From positions 1-64,000 of the forward strand of contig JAUNIS010000002.1 in NCBI GenBank assembly GCA_030523325.1: a stretch of 64,000 bases of DNA, read 5' to 3'. Position numbers and translations under genes: made by a program. The notes beneath the pieces are model-generated. The model made no database searches. It was not told where the DNA came from and was given only the letters and a program-made list of their open reading frames with translations. Numbering within the stretch: the stretch's first letter is position 1; each line of letters begins with the position of its first letter. The DNA is from Phascolarctobacterium sp. (GTDB taxonomy: Bacteria; Bacillota; Negativicutes; Acidaminococcales; Acidaminococcaceae). Below are positions 23,441 through 29,231 of this stretch, one piece after another.

Positions 23441-23475
23441 AAGTTTGCAATTGTTTTGCGAAAAAACTTAAATTT

Positions 23476-23508
23476 AAAAGCCCGCCTACTTGCGGGCTTT
23501 GTTTTTGA
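23476..23508 (+). terminator. Terminator between coaX and dusB
   Basis: AAAGCCCGC (23477-23485) pairs with GCGGGCTTT (23492-23500), followed by GTTTTTG. It lies 8-10 bases before the dusB ribosome site. Confidence 0.85.
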
Positions 23509-23515
23509 GGTATTG

Positions 23516-24538
23516 ATGAAGATAGGAAACATTGAGCTTTCGTCTCCTCTCGCTTTAGCTCCCATGGCTGGAATTACTGACCTGCCTTTTCGCTTGATCT
23601 CAAGGCGTATGGGTGCAGGTATGACTGTTAGCGAGATGGTGAGCGCGAAGGGTTTGCTTTATAAAAATGTAAAAACAACCGAGATGCTTAAGATAGATGA
23701 CGGTGAAAGACCGACAGCTATTCAACTCTTTGGCTCGGTGCCAGAAGAACTTGCCGAGGCTTCGCGCATTGTTGAAGCAAGCGGGGCTGACATGATTGAT
23801 TTTAATATGGGCTGTCCAGTGCCAAAGATTGTTAATAATGGCGAGGGCTCGGCTCTTATGAAAAATCCTAAGCTTGCTCACGATATTCTTTCTTCAATGG
23901 TTAAGGCTGTGAAGATTCCTGTGACCGTAAAGTTTCGTGCGGGCTGGGACAACGAACACCTAAACGCTGTTGAAATTGCTCGGGCTGTAGAGGCTGCCGG
24001 AGTCAGTGCACTTGCTGTACACGGTCGCACCCGCGTGCAATTTTACGAAGGCAAGGCGAATTGGTCGATCATTGGCGAAGTAAAAAGAGCCGTGCGCATT
24101 CCCGTTTTTGGTAATGGCGATATCACATCGGTTGAGTCGGGCAGTCGCATGCTAGAAGAGACGAACGTGGACGGACTTATGGTTGGAAGAGGAGCTGATG
24201 GTAATCCTTGGCTCTTTCGCGAGCTGGCAGCTTATTTAAAAGGCGAGGCGATACCTGAAGCGCCAAGCCTTGAAGAACGTCTTGCTTTAGCTCGCGAGCA
24301 TTTACAAATGCTTATTGATTTCAAAGGCGAATACATTTCCGTAAAGGAAATGCGCAGGCATATATCTGCTTATCTAAAGGGCATGCCCCACGCTGCTGAG
24401 TTTCGCGCTCGCTTTCATAAAATGAATACGCAGGTTGAATTTTTAAATTTGCTTGACGAATATCAGACGGTAGCTCAACAATATTACGAAAACGAGGACA
24501 AATACACAAAGGTTCATAAAGAAGAAACAATTACTTGA
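23516..24538 (+). CDS. dusB: tRNA-dihydrouridine synthase (DusB type)
   Basis: FMN-dependent reductase of uridines in the tRNA D-loop, 340 residues. It shows LAPMAGITDLPFR at the N-terminus, the catalytic cysteine motif NMGCPVPKIVNNGEGSALM near 100, KFRAGWD, VHGRTRVQFYEG, FGNGDI and MVGRGADGNPW, followed by the helical C-terminal domain with KEMRRHISAYLKGMP. TTGAGG precedes ATG 23516; the longer frame from 23456 runs through the terminator hairpin and was rejected. It lies between coaX and the greA-lysS pair in the order usual for these bacteria. Confidence 0.93.
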   Translation: MKIGNIELSSPLALAPMAGITDLPFRLISRRMGAGMTVSEMVSAKGLLYKNVKTTEMLKIDDGERPTAIQLFGSVPEELAEASRIVEASGADMIDFNMGCPVPKIVNNGEGSALMKNPKLAHDILSSMVKAVKIPVTVKFRAGWDNEHLNAVEIARAVEAAGVSALAVHGRTRVQFYEGKANWSIIGEVKRAVRIPVFGNGDITSVESGSRMLEETNVDGLMVGRGADGNPWLFRELAAYLKGEAIPEAPSLEERLALAREHLQMLIDFKGEYISVKEMRRHISAYLKGMPHAAEFRARFHKMNTQVEFLNLLDEYQTVAQQYYENEDKYTKVHKEETIT

Positions 24539-24559: not shown

Positions 24560-24608
24560 AATTAAATCCTGTCGTCGAAAATCGAGGGCAGGATTTAATT
24601 TTTTTATT
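24560..24608 (+). terminator. dusB terminator
   Basis: Long stem ATTAAATCCTG (24561-24571) with CAGGATTTAAT (24589-24599) and a T-rich tail of seven residues. Confidence 0.85.
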
Positions 24609-24650: not shown

Positions 24651-24678
24651 TTGACAATCGTTTAAGATATGTTAAAAT
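24651..24678 (+). promoter_or_regulatory. Promoter of the acyl-ACP-reductase-like pair
   Basis: TTGACA at 24651-24656, 16-base spacer, TAAAAT at 24673-24678, placing the start of transcription about 28 bases ahead of the first gene. Confidence 0.7.
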
Positions 24679-24712: not shown

Positions 24713-25630
24713 ATGACGACAGAACAAAACTTAAAGCATGTAGTCAGCATTAGTCTGGGCTCATCCAAAAGAGATGCTCAAGTAACGTTTGACATAGGTG
24801 AACAGAAAATTGTTGTGGAGCGTCGTGGTACTGACGGCGACCTTGCTAAAGCCAAAGCTATGCTGAAGGAATTGGATGGCAAGGTAGATGCTATTGGTTT
24901 AGGAGGTACCGATTTGTACGTATGCGCAGGGGAGAAGCGTTATATGTTCAAGGAAAGTGCTGACTTGATCAAGGATGTAAAACATACTCCTGTTTTGGAT
25001 GGCAGCGGTTTAAAAAATTCTTTAGAACGCAGGCTCATTCAAAAATTAGCAGCTGCCCAAACCATTAACTTTCGAGGAACTAAGGTGCTTTTAGTTTGTG
25101 GTGTGGATCGTTTCGGTATGGCAAGTGCTTTAGATGAAGCGGGTGCGGATGTTACCTTCGGTGATATAATTTTTGGCTTGGGCATCAATAAGCCCTTGCG
25201 TTCTTTAGAATCTTTAAGTTTTTGGACTGGAATCTTAGCACCTGTGCTCACAAGACTTCCCGTTAGCTGGTTTTATCCCATGGGAGAAGAGCAGGAAAAA
25301 AGAATCCTGTGTCATCCAGAATATTTTTTAGAGAACGACATCATCGCCGGAGATTTTCACTACATAAAAAAATTTATGCCGGATAATTTACCTGGCAAAA
25401 TTATTATTACAAATACAGTGACTGCAATAGATAGGGAGTTTTTAAAAGCTGCAGGAGTAAAGACGCTCATCACAACCACGCCCTGTCTTGAAGGTCGCAG
25501 TTTTGGGACCAATGTCATGGAAGCAATGCTGGTAGCCTTAAAGGGTGCTCGTGGTCCTCTTAAGGCCGAGCAATATTTAGAGCTCTTGGACCGCTTCGCT
25601 ATTGAATCGTCTCAGACTGATCTCAATTAA
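24713..25630 (+). CDS. Two-domain Rossmann-like protein paired with an acyl-ACP-reductase homologue
   Basis: A 305-residue soluble protein I cannot assign to a characterised enzyme. Residues 1-115 look like an alpha/beta domain (VVSISLGSSKRD, AIGLGGTDLYVCAG); a Rossmann-type strand-turn-helix follows at 122-140 (TKVLLVCGVDRFGMASAL); the C-terminal third has IIITNTVTAIDREFLKAAGVKTLITTTPCLEGRSFGTN, with Cys258 in a TTPCLEG motif. From memory, relatives carry automatic names such as quinate/shikimate dehydrogenase, which I regard as unproven. It begins the same transcript as the next gene (17-base gap), so they probably act in one pathway. AGGAG lies ahead of ATG 24713. Confidence 0.6.
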   Translation: MTTEQNLKHVVSISLGSSKRDAQVTFDIGEQKIVVERRGTDGDLAKAKAMLKELDGKVDAIGLGGTDLYVCAGEKRYMFKESADLIKDVKHTPVLDGSGLKNSLERRLIQKLAAAQTINFRGTKVLLVCGVDRFGMASALDEAGADVTFGDIIFGLGINKPLRSLESLSFWTGILAPVLTRLPVSWFYPMGEEQEKRILCHPEYFLENDIIAGDFHYIKKFMPDNLPGKIIITNTVTAIDREFLKAAGVKTLITTTPCLEGRSFGTNVMEAMLVALKGARGPLKAEQYLELLDRFAIESSQTDLN

Positions 25631-25647
25631 AGGAGTCAGAACTTCAA

Positions 25648-26733
25648 ATGGAAAAATTCGGTTTTATTTTCCATCCCTTGAGCATCAAGGATATGGAACA
25701 TGTATCGCCGATAATGAAATTCATACCGGATAGTTGGATTGAAGCAGGACTTAAAATGAAGAAGCCCTTTAAGGTTTCTCATATTACAGGTGTAAAAAGT
25801 CCCTATGCTGAAGCCGAAGGTTGGTTCCTTGGTTGCACTCTCACGGCTAAACAAATGGTTACCTTACCAGAAGAGTTCGTTGTGGATCGGATTATTGAAA
25901 CTGGTAAAATCGGACAAGAGCTGGGCGCAAAGATTGTCGGTCTAGGTGCTTTCAGTTCTATTGTGGGTGACGCAGGTATAACCATCGCAAAAAATCTTGA
26001 CATAGCAGTAACCACAGGTAATTCTTATACAGTTGCTACTGCGCTTGAAGGAACCAAGGAAGCAGCACGACTCATGGGCAAGGACTTTAGTAAATGTCAT
26101 GCTCTTGTAGTTGGAGCTACTGGTTCTATTGGCAGTGCCGTCGTTCGCATTCTTGCTGATGAGGTGTCCAAGATTACCATGGTAGCTAGGCGAATGGGCC
26201 CTCTTGAAGAATTAGCTCAAAAGGTTCTTAAAGAAGGCAAATGTGAAGTTGAGGTATCAAATGATATTCGTTCTGCTCTTAAGGATGCGGATATCGTACT
26301 CACTGTTACGAGTGCACTTGATTTCATTGTCGAGCCGGAATATTTAAAGCCAGGCGCAGTTGTATGTGATGTGGCAAGACCGCGCAATGTTTCTCGCGAG
26401 GTCGCAGAAAAACGCAACGATGTTTTAGTCATCGAAGGAGGCGTTATCAATGTCCCTGGCGATGTTGATTTTGGTTTTAATTTCGGTTTTCCTCCGAAGA
26501 CATCTTATGCTTGCATGGCTGAGACCATGATTCTTGCACTTGATGGTCGTTATGAAAACTTTTCCATGGGACGTACCCTGGAATTAGAAAAAATTAAATT
26601 GATTTCTGAGCTTGCAAAAAAGCATGGCTTTTCCTTGGCCGGCTTCCGTAATTTCGAAAGGGCTGTTGACATGAATCGCATTTTGGAAAAGAAAGCTGCT
26701 GCCGAAAAAAATTTAGCCGTGCATGGTAAATAA
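25648..26733 (+). CDS. Homologue of cyanobacterial long-chain acyl-ACP reductase (AAR)
   Basis: A 361-residue protein that aligns over its full length with my memory of the cyanobacterial acyl-ACP reductase of alkane synthesis: FGFIFHPLS at the N-terminus, GLGAFSSIVGDAG near 98-110, TTGNSYTVATALEG near 122-135, the NADPH-binding GATGSIGSAV at 156-165, IEGGVINVPGDVDF near 262, and SYACMAETM followed by NFSMGR and KKHGFSLAGF. Cys289 matches the acyl-thioester cysteine of the cyanobacterial enzyme, and Cys63 matches a second conserved cysteine. It should therefore be an NAD(P)H-dependent acyl thioester reductase or relative; the substrate is unknown. Automatic naming as shikimate dehydrogenase would rest only on the Rossmann fold. 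Confidence 0.75.
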   Translation: MEKFGFIFHPLSIKDMEHVSPIMKFIPDSWIEAGLKMKKPFKVSHITGVKSPYAEAEGWFLGCTLTAKQMVTLPEEFVVDRIIETGKIGQELGAKIVGLGAFSSIVGDAGITIAKNLDIAVTTGNSYTVATALEGTKEAARLMGKDFSKCHALVVGATGSIGSAVVRILADEVSKITMVARRMGPLEELAQKVLKEGKCEVEVSNDIRSALKDADIVLTVTSALDFIVEPEYLKPGAVVCDVARPRNVSREVAEKRNDVLVIEGGVINVPGDVDFGFNFGFPPKTSYACMAETMILALDGRYENFSMGRTLELEKIKLISELAKKHGFSLAGFRNFERAVDMNRILEKKAAAEKNLAVHGK

Positions 26734-26795: not shown

Positions 26796-27263
26796 ATGGC
26801 TGCAAAGAAAGTTATTCTTACCCAAGAAGGTTTGGAAAATTTAAAACAAGAACTTGACTACTTGGTGAAAACTAAACGTGAAGAAATCCTCGCACGCTTA
26901 GCTGAAGCTCGTGCTCAAGGCGACTTAAGTGAAAACGCTGAATACGAACAAGCAAGAGAAGACCAAGCTAAAAACGAAGGCCGTATTCTTGAATTAAAAG
27001 CCGAAATTGAAAACGCACAAATCATCGAAAAAACTGAAGGCGGCAAAATCGATATTGGCTCTACCGTAATTCTTTTAGACACTGAATTCGAAGAAGAAGA
27101 AACTTATTCCATCGTTGGTACTACTGAAGCCGACCCCTTTAATAATAAAATTTCTAACGAGTCTCCTGTTGGTGCAGCAATTATCGGTCATTCTGTTGGC
27201 GATGAAGTTGTTGTAACCACTCCTGGTGGAGATGTTGTTTATAAAATTATCGACGTTCAATAA
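26796..27263 (+). CDS. greA: Transcription elongation factor GreA
   Basis: 155 residues. The N-terminal coiled coil that enters the RNA polymerase secondary channel spans about 1-75 (KVILTQEGLENLKQELDYL, ARAQGDLSENAEYEQAREDQ with the acidic tip residues in DLSENAEY), and the C-terminal FKBP-like domain has SPVGAAIIGHSVGDEVVV. GreA stimulates cleavage of backtracked RNA. AAAGGAG lies before ATG 26796. lysS starts 12 bases downstream, so greA-lysS form one operon, as in many Firmicutes. Confidence 0.95.
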   Translation: MAAKKVILTQEGLENLKQELDYLVKTKREEILARLAEARAQGDLSENAEYEQAREDQAKNEGRILELKAEIENAQIIEKTEGGKIDIGSTVILLDTEFEEEETYSIVGTTEADPFNNKISNESPVGAAIIGHSVGDEVVVTTPGGDVVYKIIDVQ

Positions 27264-27275
27264 GGAGAATTAGTA

Positions 27276-29231
27276 ATGGCTGAAGTTAAAAATAATGCTC
27301 CGCAAACAGAAATGTCTGATCAAATGCAAGTCCGCATTGATAAAATGCACAAAATCGAAGAAGCTGGTCTGCTTCCTTTTGGTCATAAATTTTTGTGGAC
27401 TCATCATGCTCAAGATATCTCTGACAAGTTTGATGAGCTGAACGAAAAAGAAGTTAAGCTGGCTGGTCGTGTAATGGCAATTCGTGGTCATGGCAAAACC
27501 TGCTTTATGGATATGCGTGACATTAGCGGACGCATTCAACTTTATGTTCGTAAGGACGTACTTGGTGAAGAAGCTTATAAAATTATTAAGATGATGGATA
27601 TCGGTGATATTGTTGGTGTAACCGGCAGTGTTTTCCGCACTCATATGGGCGAAGTATCTATTAAGGTTACCGCACTTGAGGTTCTTTCTAAATCCCTCCG
27701 TCCCCTGCCAGAAAAATGGCATGGTTTAAAGGATGTAGAAATGCGTTATCGTCAACGCTATGTTGATCTCATTATGAACCCAGATGTTATGCAAACCTTC
27801 ATTAAACGCACTCAAATCATTAAGAGCTTGCGTGACGTTTTAGATAGCCATAATTTCTTAGAGGTTGAAACTCCTGTTCTCAACACCATTCCTGGTGGTG
27901 CAGCAGCTCGTCCTTTCATTAGCTACCATAATGCTCTTGATATGCATGTTTACATGCGTATCGCAACCGAGCTCCACTTAAAACGTTTAATCGTTGGTGG
28001 TATGGAACGCGTTTATGAAATTGGACGTATTTTCCGTAACGAAGGCATCGATAATCGTCACAATCCTGAATTCACCTCCGTGGAAATTTACCAAGCCTTT
28101 GGTGACTACGAAGATATGATGGATCTTACCGAAGAAATCGTTATCAAAACCGCTCAAAAAGTTCTCGGTACAACTAAGATTACTTACGAAGGCACCGAAA
28201 TTGAGCTTGGCGGTCCTTGGAAACGCATGAGCATGACCGATGCAGTTAAAGAATATTCTGGCAAGGATTTCTCTAACGTAACTGATATCGAAGAAGCTCG
28301 CGCTATGGCAAAAGAATTAAACGTTCCTATCGAACCGTCCTTTGGTATTGGCAAAATCATTAATGCATGCTTTGAAGAATATGTTGAAGATAAGCTCATT
28401 CAACCCACATTCATCACTCATCATCCGAAGGAAATTTCTCCGCTGGCAAAATCTAATCCGATTAACCCGGATATCACCGACCGTTTCGAAGGTTATATTT
28501 ATGGCCGTGAGATTTGCAATGGCTTCACCGAATTAAATGATCCTATTGATCAACGCGAACGTTTCCAAAAGCAAGTTGAAGAACGTGCAGCTGGTGACGA
28601 AGAAGCCAATATGATGGACGAAGATTTCTGTGTAGCTCTTGAGCATGGCCTGCCTCCTACGGGTGGCCTCGGTATTGGTATCGATCGTCTAGTAATGTTC
28701 CTTACCGATTCATCTTCTATTCGCGATGTCTTGCTCTTCCCGACCATGAAACCGGAAAAAGCTAGTGGCAGTCAGGAAACTCAAGCTGAAGCAGCAAATA
28801 TTCCTTGTGAAGCACAAGCTCCCTGCGAAGCTCAAACTAAGCAAGAAGAGGTTATCGACTTCTCTAAAGTTGAAATCGAACCTCTCTTTGAAGAATTTGT
28901 CGATTTCGACACCTTCTGTAAATCCGACTTCCGCGCAGTCAAGGTTCTAGAATGCGAAGCAGTTAAGAAATCCAAAAAGCTGCTCAAATTTACTCTGAAC
29001 GATGGCACTGGTACTAACCGCACAATTCTTTCTGGCATTCATGCTTTCTATGAACCAGAAGAACTCATCGGCAAAACCTTGGTTGCTATTACTAACCTGC
29101 CTCCTCGCCCCATGATGGGCTTGGAATCCTGTGGTATGCTTTTGTCCGCTGTTCATACTGAAGAGGGCGAAGAAAAGCTTCATCTGATTATGATTGACAA
29201 TCACATCCCGGCCGGCGCTAAGTTGAGATAA
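27276..29231 (+). CDS. lysS: Lysyl-tRNA synthetase fused to a C-terminal tRNA-binding domain
   Basis: Class II LysRS with an unusual extension, 651 residues against about 500 for the normal enzyme. Residues about 20-490 are complete: the OB-fold anticodon domain, motif 2 (IGRIFRNEGIDNRHNPEFTS) and motif 3 (GGLGIGIDRLVMF). A linker of about 35 residues follows, rich in Ala/Glu/Gln with a doubled PCEAQ unit, then residues 529-651 form an EMAPII/Trbp111-type tRNA-binding OB fold (DFRAVKVLECEAVKKSKKLLKF, SGIHAFYEPEELIGK, PRPMMGLESCGMLLSA). Such domains are common on bacterial MetRS, not LysRS. No stop or frameshift interrupts the join. Confidence 0.93.
   Translation: MAEVKNNAPQTEMSDQMQVRIDKMHKIEEAGLLPFGHKFLWTHHAQDISDKFDELNEKEVKLAGRVMAIRGHGKTCFMDMRDISGRIQLYVRKDVLGEEAYKIIKMMDIGDIVGVTGSVFRTHMGEVSIKVTALEVLSKSLRPLPEKWHGLKDVEMRYRQRYVDLIMNPDVMQTFIKRTQIIKSLRDVLDSHNFLEVETPVLNTIPGGAAARPFISYHNALDMHVYMRIATELHLKRLIVGGMERVYEIGRIFRNEGIDNRHNPEFTSVEIYQAFGDYEDMMDLTEEIVIKTAQKVLGTTKITYEGTEIELGGPWKRMSMTDAVKEYSGKDFSNVTDIEEARAMAKELNVPIEPSFGIGKIINACFEEYVEDKLIQPTFITHHPKEISPLAKSNPINPDITDRFEGYIYGREICNGFTELNDPIDQRERFQKQVEERAAGDEEANMMDEDFCVALEHGLPPTGGLGIGIDRLVMFLTDSSSIRDVLLFPTMKPEKASGSQETQAEAANIPCEAQAPCEAQTKQEEVIDFSKVEIEPLFEEFVDFDTFCKSDFRAVKVLECEAVKKSKKLLKFTLNDGTGTNRTILSGIHAFYEPEELIGKTLVAITNLPPRPMMGLESCGMLLSAVHTEEGEEKLHLIMIDNHIPAGAKLR

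Follow-up and report, generated by a model that had tools for sequence, protein, structure and literature searches.

AAR-type enzymes (acyl-ACP reductases) are known from alkane-making cyanobacteria and from a few natural-product clusters. The locus described here, which lies in a stretch of 64,000 nucleotides of Phascolarctobacterium DNA (the window), raises the question of what a homologue of these enzymes does in this gut anaerobe, and what the gene in front of it contributes. To answer it, we computed the folds of the two products, their motif and cysteine conservation, their co-occurrence, their synteny and their fusions. The reading that we favour, and hold to be fairly probable, is that the second gene (gene 2) provides a fatty aldehyde from which membrane lipids are built, with the first gene (gene 1) as its partner.

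The two-gene locus and its neighbours

The features of the locus are as follows.
23456..24538, + strand: dusB, the conserved upstream neighbour of the pair
24560..24600, + strand: predicted intrinsic terminator after dusB, with the hairpin AATTAAATCCTGTC...GGCAGGATTTAATT and then a T-run (-23.7 kcal/mol, z -7.1)
24651..24678, + strand: sigma-70-like promoter of the gene 1/gene 2 pair, TTGACA-16-TAAAAT with extended TG
24713..25630, + strand: gene 1, 305 aa, a predicted AAR-fold protein with Asn267 at the Cys position and without GxxGxxG
25648..26733, + strand: gene 2, 361 aa, by homology an acyl-thioester reductase of the AAR superfamily, with GATGSIG at 156-162, catalytic Cys289 and Glu292
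26796..27263, + strand: greA, a conserved downstream neighbour of the pair
27276..29231, + strand: lysS, a conserved downstream neighbour of the pair

Gene 2 follows gene 1 on the same strand after a gap of 17 nt, and the predicted terminator separates dusB from the pair. The promoter-like site matches 11 of 12 consensus positions, but such matches arise by chance, and the main argument for it is its place, 35 nt before the ATG of gene 1. Given the dusB hairpin and this site, gene 1 and gene 2 probably start their own transcription unit, which agrees with the two-gene operon proposed in the initial annotation.

The nearest named loci belong to Phascolarctobacterium MAGs, with 67% identity for gene 1 and 75% for gene 2. 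The order birA-coaX-dusB-(HTH)-gene1-gene2-greA-lysS recurs widely in the loci of relatives, with gene 2 directly downstream of gene 1 in 102 of 136 loci and an HTH gene, whose product has about 180 aa, immediately before gene 1 in 87 of 116. This HTH gene is absent at the locus in the Phascolarctobacterium lineage and had no match in the window's genome; a more distant Acidaminococcaceae MAG (L101) has it. The HTH protein carries a C-terminal domain of unassigned kind (for example L079:4367-4924 and L096:3665-4207, together with 85 other loci). A fusion of gene 1 to the HTH protein was rejected, since a gene 1 ORF that looks long simply runs on, out of frame, into the HTH gene before it. The conserved neighbourhood held no recognisable PKS/NRPS or carrier-protein gene, and the neighbours of gene 1/gene 2 loci elsewhere in genomes were all unrelated (MFS, AMMECR1/LigB, transporter, YkuD) and gave no functional hint. 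At two loci (L076 and L077, in genomes G048 and G122), gene 1 is no longer next to gene 2 and lies beside a PAS histidine kinase gene and a YkuD transpeptidase gene; in the family of these genomes, gene 2 is still at the dusB-greA locus (L002, L003).

The downstream neighbours showed features of their own. The window greA (26796-27263) shares only 52% identity with its Phascolarctobacterium counterparts in the corresponding position, against 75-80% for the neighbouring genes, and replacement or fast evolution is a possible cause. The window LysS (27276-29231) carries a C-terminal tRNA_bind domain (PF01588, residues 553-649), and lysS at this locus is shorter in most relatives (about 490-510 aa). 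At L086:7575-10997, which ends at the locus edge, the lysS ORF is at least 1141 aa long, with no Pfam match in its last 660 or so residues; L090 and L160 hold similarly long lysS ORFs.

Gene 2 as a predicted acyl-thioester reductase

The initial annotation had described gene 2 as similar to cyanobacterial AAR along its length, with GATGSIG at 156-162, Cys63, and Cys289 in the motif SYACMAETM. The open reading frames and all of these motifs are present as claimed, and similarity to AAR (PDB 6JZQ) does extend over the full length (phmmer E 1.5e-25, profile search E 7e-41); the best PDB sequence matches were PigE (4PPM) and AAR (6JZQ). In Pfam, gene 2 matched only the Rossmann-type Shikimate_DH domain and, more weakly, dinucleotide-binding domains. 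In NCBIfam, PigE ranked first with 213 bits, followed by long-chain acyl-ACP reductase (equivalog TIGR04058) with 125.1 bits, which is below the curated cut-off of 449.7 bits. The AlphaFold model (pLDDT 90) superposed on 6JZQ with Z 34.9 over 325 residues (2.8 Å, 28% identity), and the three-domain AAR fold spans the whole chain, as in the COG5322-like AAR superfamily. The reductase-like domain of carmabin (TAD) matched with Z 34.5, and the next structural class scored about 14 (GluTR 13.9, YdiB 13.5). Cys289 stands at the start of helix 288-299 and aligns with C294 of AAR (motif ACFAE), the residue that forms the acyl-enzyme (PMC7089970), so its assignment to the acyl-thioester position was sound.

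By homology, gene 2 is a predicted NAD(P)H-dependent acyl-thioester reductase of the AAR superfamily. Because its score stays below the AAR equivalog cut-off of NCBIfam and there is no aldehyde-deformylating oxygenase (ADO) gene, it is best placed as a sister branch without AAR equivalog status, nearest in sequence to the PigE-type thioester reductases. The superfamily named in the initial annotation thus stood, and the closest sequence relative became the PigE reductase domain instead of cyanobacterial AAR. Aldehyde formation, which had been suggested before, remains the likely chemistry from the AAR-type family and the conserved Cys, and we consider aldehyde-forming thioester reduction very probable.

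Other functions fit less well. Alkane synthesis was rejected, since ADO (PF11266) was found neither beside gene 2, as already noted in the initial annotation, nor in the 92.6%-complete genome, with a positive Synechococcus control. The labels shikimate and quinate dehydrogenase are indeed misleading: PF08501, the AroE substrate-binding domain, had no match in gene 1 or gene 2, a distinct AroE with PF08501 is encoded elsewhere in the genome (contig C14), and gene 2 is nearer to AAR by structure (Z 34.9 vs only 13.5 for YdiB). We also found no match to the class III aminotransferase domain PF00202 in gene 2, none to DUF2229 of the PlsA/PlsR multidomain reductase in either product, and no N-terminal PlsY domain (PF02660) in gene 2, which begins at the AAR domain.

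Conservation of the catalytic cysteine

Cys289 is kept in 97 of 111 gene 2 homologues, nearly all close ones included, and Glu292 in 111 of 111; the core residues, the Cys and GxxGxxG among them, do not vary in most gene 2 proteins. The replacements are Trp, Ser, Ala, Gly and Asp, mostly on long branches and in several unconnected parts of the tree, such as a Peptococcaceae clade with Trp, L037, and one genome of family f35 with Ser whose sister bears Cys; the tree was a quick one with long branches, and the number of losses is approximate. Several divergent lineages have lost the cysteine, and others have at the gene 2 position a very divergent protein without BLAST match, or nothing. Highly divergent proteins of 296-357 aa lie between gene 1 and greA at L066:3636-4559, L067, L068, L074, L075, L098 and L059, with no Cys motif in those whose sequence was read; these may be decayed gene 2 copies or replacements.

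Gene 1 is modelled with the AAR fold

The partner had been described as an uncharacterised Rossmann-like protein, and its model revises this description. Gene 1 had no match in Pfam or NCBIfam and no convincing PDB match by sequence, and a weak similarity to a pterin-binding protein was gone when a profile was used. The best structural match of the model (pLDDT 91) was AAR 6JZQ (VIA), with Z 14.9 over 250 residues, and glutamate dehydrogenases scored about 10. Comparison of profiles alone (hhalign) detected no homology between gene 1 and gene 2. When predicted secondary structure was combined with the profiles, the alignment placed Asn267 on Cys289, Glu270 on Glu292, G62/G64 on G98/G100 and D132/G135 on G159/G162, with the same residue pairings in 9/9 parameter settings and a score of 258 vs 161 ± 10 for column-permuted profiles, a somewhat lenient null. 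Gene 1 has CGVDRFG where gene 2 has the dinucleotide loop, and its Asn267, which lies in GRSFGTNV, is invariant. According to the model, gene 1 has the AAR fold without the catalytic-Cys and GxxGxxG features of AAR, and the two genes would share ancestry, judging from fold, secondary-structure order and motif alignment.

We rejected the idea that gene 1 is a decaying copy, because it has 46 invariant positions in a 46-sequence alignment, many of them polar, and a wider spread than gene 2. All 47 conserved residues that were checked (47/47) were identical in 14/14 sequences from Bacillota and Deinococcota.

Occurrence in Bacillota

In a sample of 249 Bacillota genomes, gene 1 was present in 186 and full gene 2 in 124. 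Gene 1 accompanied gene 2 in 123 of these 124, the lone exception being a 78%-complete genome, and 63 genomes had gene 1 without strict gene 2. Therefore, gene 2 depends on gene 1, and the reverse does not hold. In about half of the Bacillota genomes sampled, the gene 2 chemistry is part of a conserved module at a housekeeping locus, practically always with a Cys-less AAR-fold partner.

Of the 124 genomes with gene 2, 18 had PlsA-type genes, vs 56 of the 125 without it (p 2e-7, uncorrected for phylogeny), and 7 of 7 sampled genomes of the same class had PlsA-type genes and lacked the pair. The window organism's genome has a PlsA-type ORF elsewhere (contig C29). We rejected a sporulation role: almost all genomes of the sample have Spo0A, yet the window's genome, without a Spo0A match, has the pair.

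Fused relatives in Bacillota and Deinococcota

Bacillota have proteins that join a gene 2-like domain to a class III aminotransferase, with either domain first, and the aminotransferase/reductase fusions of Thermaerobacter and Thermincola have been published (PMC10829540). At L044:2928-5675, an aminotransferase-AAR fusion lies between dusB and gene 1, and the adjoining gene 2 has Gly at Cys289; here the fused AAR domain may have taken over catalysis.

A fusion of a PlsY-like domain to an AAR domain was found in one Bacillota MAG (G128, L036:6217-7986) and also in Meiothermus granaticius (L196:751-2451). It is not a MAG artefact, since it is present throughout Deinococcota, where about 95 of 101 genomes hold PlsY-like and AAR domains in one open frame, four have partial matches and two lack the AAR part. 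A separate PlsY of ordinary length is usually present in these genomes too. The canonical PlsY loop is GSGNxGATN. The PlsY part of the fusions has no such loop, so its acceptor may be a different one. The catalytic Cys is kept in 22/22 fusions compared, and 20 Deinococcota loci had no aminotransferase gene less than about 8 kb from the fusion. Gene 1 occurs in 98 of the 101 genomes, but its co-occurrence with the fusion inside Deinococcota is uninformative, as both are near universal; in Meiothermus the two are non-adjacent.

This fusion is the strongest clue to the pathway: AAR-type chemistry recurs near universally in Deinococcota in PlsY-like form and points to an unsolved membrane-lipid branch. 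By their domain make-up, the aminotransferase and PlsY-like fusions would tie the gene 2 family to acyl and amine chemistry.

Proposed role of the pair and alternatives

AAR reduces a thioester to an aldehyde (PMC7089970), and so do PigE (PMC8341465) and TamH (PMC9594044), for which the route runs from thioester through aldehyde to amine. By analogy, we infer catalysis by gene 2, a physical partnership with gene 1 and a lipid product as follows. Cys289 would take the acyl group from a carrier, either ACP or CoA, with acyl-phosphate also possible by homology. The carrier would depart, NAD(P)H would then bind at GATGSIG, and hydride transfer would free the fatty aldehyde from gene 2. Since gene 2 depends on gene 1, the latter is most likely a partner rather than a decayed copy, and it most likely handles the next or the preceding step, whether by binding the carrier or acceptor or by converting the aldehyde onward. 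The aldehyde would most likely enter membrane-lipid synthesis, and neither alkanes (no ADO) nor plasmalogens, which are the task of PlsA.

It is unlikely, to our judgement, that gene 2 instead reduces a thioester that is not long-chain (short-chain, branched, aminoacyl or polyketide-type) to a small aldehyde or alcohol, like PigE or carmabin TAD. Its nearest sequence relatives are PigE-type and the TAD matches it as well structurally (Z 34.5), but the conserved neighbourhood holds no recognised PKS/NRPS or carrier-protein gene, and the fusions to a PlsY-like domain speak for fatty acyl groups.

The pair could also be regulatory, with gene 1 and gene 2 binding acyl-ACP, acyl-CoA or another metabolite and signalling via the adjacent HTH protein, and with catalysis secondary or lost. 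Although the HTH gene often stands directly upstream (87/116 loci), the window lineage has none and has kept both genes. Similarly, Cys289 has been lost repeatedly while gene 2 stayed in place, and gene 1 exceeds gene 2 in both conservation and spread; however, most gene 2 proteins share unchanged core residues that include the Cys and GxxGxxG, and 22/22 compared Deinococcota fused enzymes retain the Cys. We therefore regard a regulatory role as quite improbable.

Finally, use of the aldehyde in plasmalogen or other ether-lipid synthesis, as the initial annotation had speculated, can be dismissed as very improbable: the PlsA-type gene of the window organism's genome and early feeding studies, in which long-chain aldehydes were used for plasmalogen synthesis (PMC9702350), speak for it, but the pair is anti-associated with PlsA-type genes, same-class genomes with PlsA have no pair, and bacterial plasmalogens are made directly by reduction of diacyl lipids (PMC9702350).

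Alkylamine lipids as a candidate destination

For the preferred reading, in which gene 2 supplies a fatty aldehyde to membrane-lipid synthesis, the best candidate product class would be long-chain alkylamines such as those of the N-glyceroyl-alkylamine phosphoglycolipids. Since 1985, glyceroyl-alkylamine lipids have counted as a chemical hallmark of Deinococcus, Thermus and Meiothermus. The phosphoglycolipids of these genera are built on N-glyceroyl alkylamine and are unambiguous markers of the lineage (PMC3035268, PMC3398001). N-glyceroyl alkylamines also occur in Moorella thermoacetica and, according to a 2025 paper, dominate several Bacillota lipidomes (both cited in PMC13274423). For Thermus, attachment of the fatty amine has only been postulated (PMC9636437), and our literature search found no paper naming a gene for the synthesis of N-glyceroyl-alkylamine lipids.

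An alkylamine needs an acyl chain to be reduced and aminated, and an AAR together with an aminotransferase fits that chemistry. The occurrence of gene 1 in two phyla alongside an AAR enzyme suggests agreement with an alkylamine-lipid role, the match being a coarse one. We tentatively propose that gene 1 and the AAR-type reductase carry out the so far unassigned first steps of N-glyceroyl-alkylamine phosphoglycolipid synthesis, the reductase being standalone in Bacillota and PlsY-fused in Deinococcota, and gene 1 being a new AAR-fold enzyme (Cys to Asn) that acts on a polar carrier or glyceroyl substrate. The assignment of the lipid as N-glyceroyl alkylamine is itself speculative. If true, it would give two specific candidate genes for the glyceroyl-alkylamine lipids of Deinococcus, Thermus and Meiothermus.

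Comparison with known systems

The reading of gene 1 and gene 2 given here would replace misleading labels, quinate 5-dehydrogenase and shikimate dehydrogenase, on hundreds of proteins. With AroE/YdiB, gene 2 shares the Rossmann domain only; it differs by having no PF08501, by a Z of 13.5 that is the same as for many other dehydrogenases, and by the genome's own AroE. The Deinococcota family deino9.00587, which is labelled quinate 5-dehydrogenase, resembles the gene 1 family in that it evolves slowly, occurs throughout the Deinococcota set of that survey and is also found in other bacteria (PMC9425974); it is probably the gene 1 family, a link made by name and distribution and not by comparing sequences.

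The PlsY-like/AAR fusion of Deinococcota shares a PACLAET-type Cys motif and the dinucleotide loop with gene 2 and co-occurs with gene 1, whereas it has an N-terminal PlsY-like membrane domain and is not adjacent to gene 1. The PigE/TamH aminotransferase/thioester reductase fusions, including those of Thermaerobacter and Thermincola (PMC10829540), contain the closest reductase domain (213 bits) and the Cys-x-x-Glu-Thr motif, and in Bacillota such a fusion stands once beside gene 1 and gene 2 (L044). In contrast, gene 2 is standalone, with no aminotransferase domain and no natural-product cluster. Cyanobacterial AAR (TIGR04058; PDB 6JZQ, 6JZU and 6JZY) has in common with gene 2 the whole fold (Z 34.9), the GATGxIG loop, the catalytic Cys that opens the C-terminal helix and the Glu at +3. 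Unlike it, gene 2, which is about 26-28% identical and reaches 125 of the 449.7 bits of the equivalog cut-off, has no ADO and is tied to gene 1 and to the dusB-greA-lysS locus, in anaerobes.
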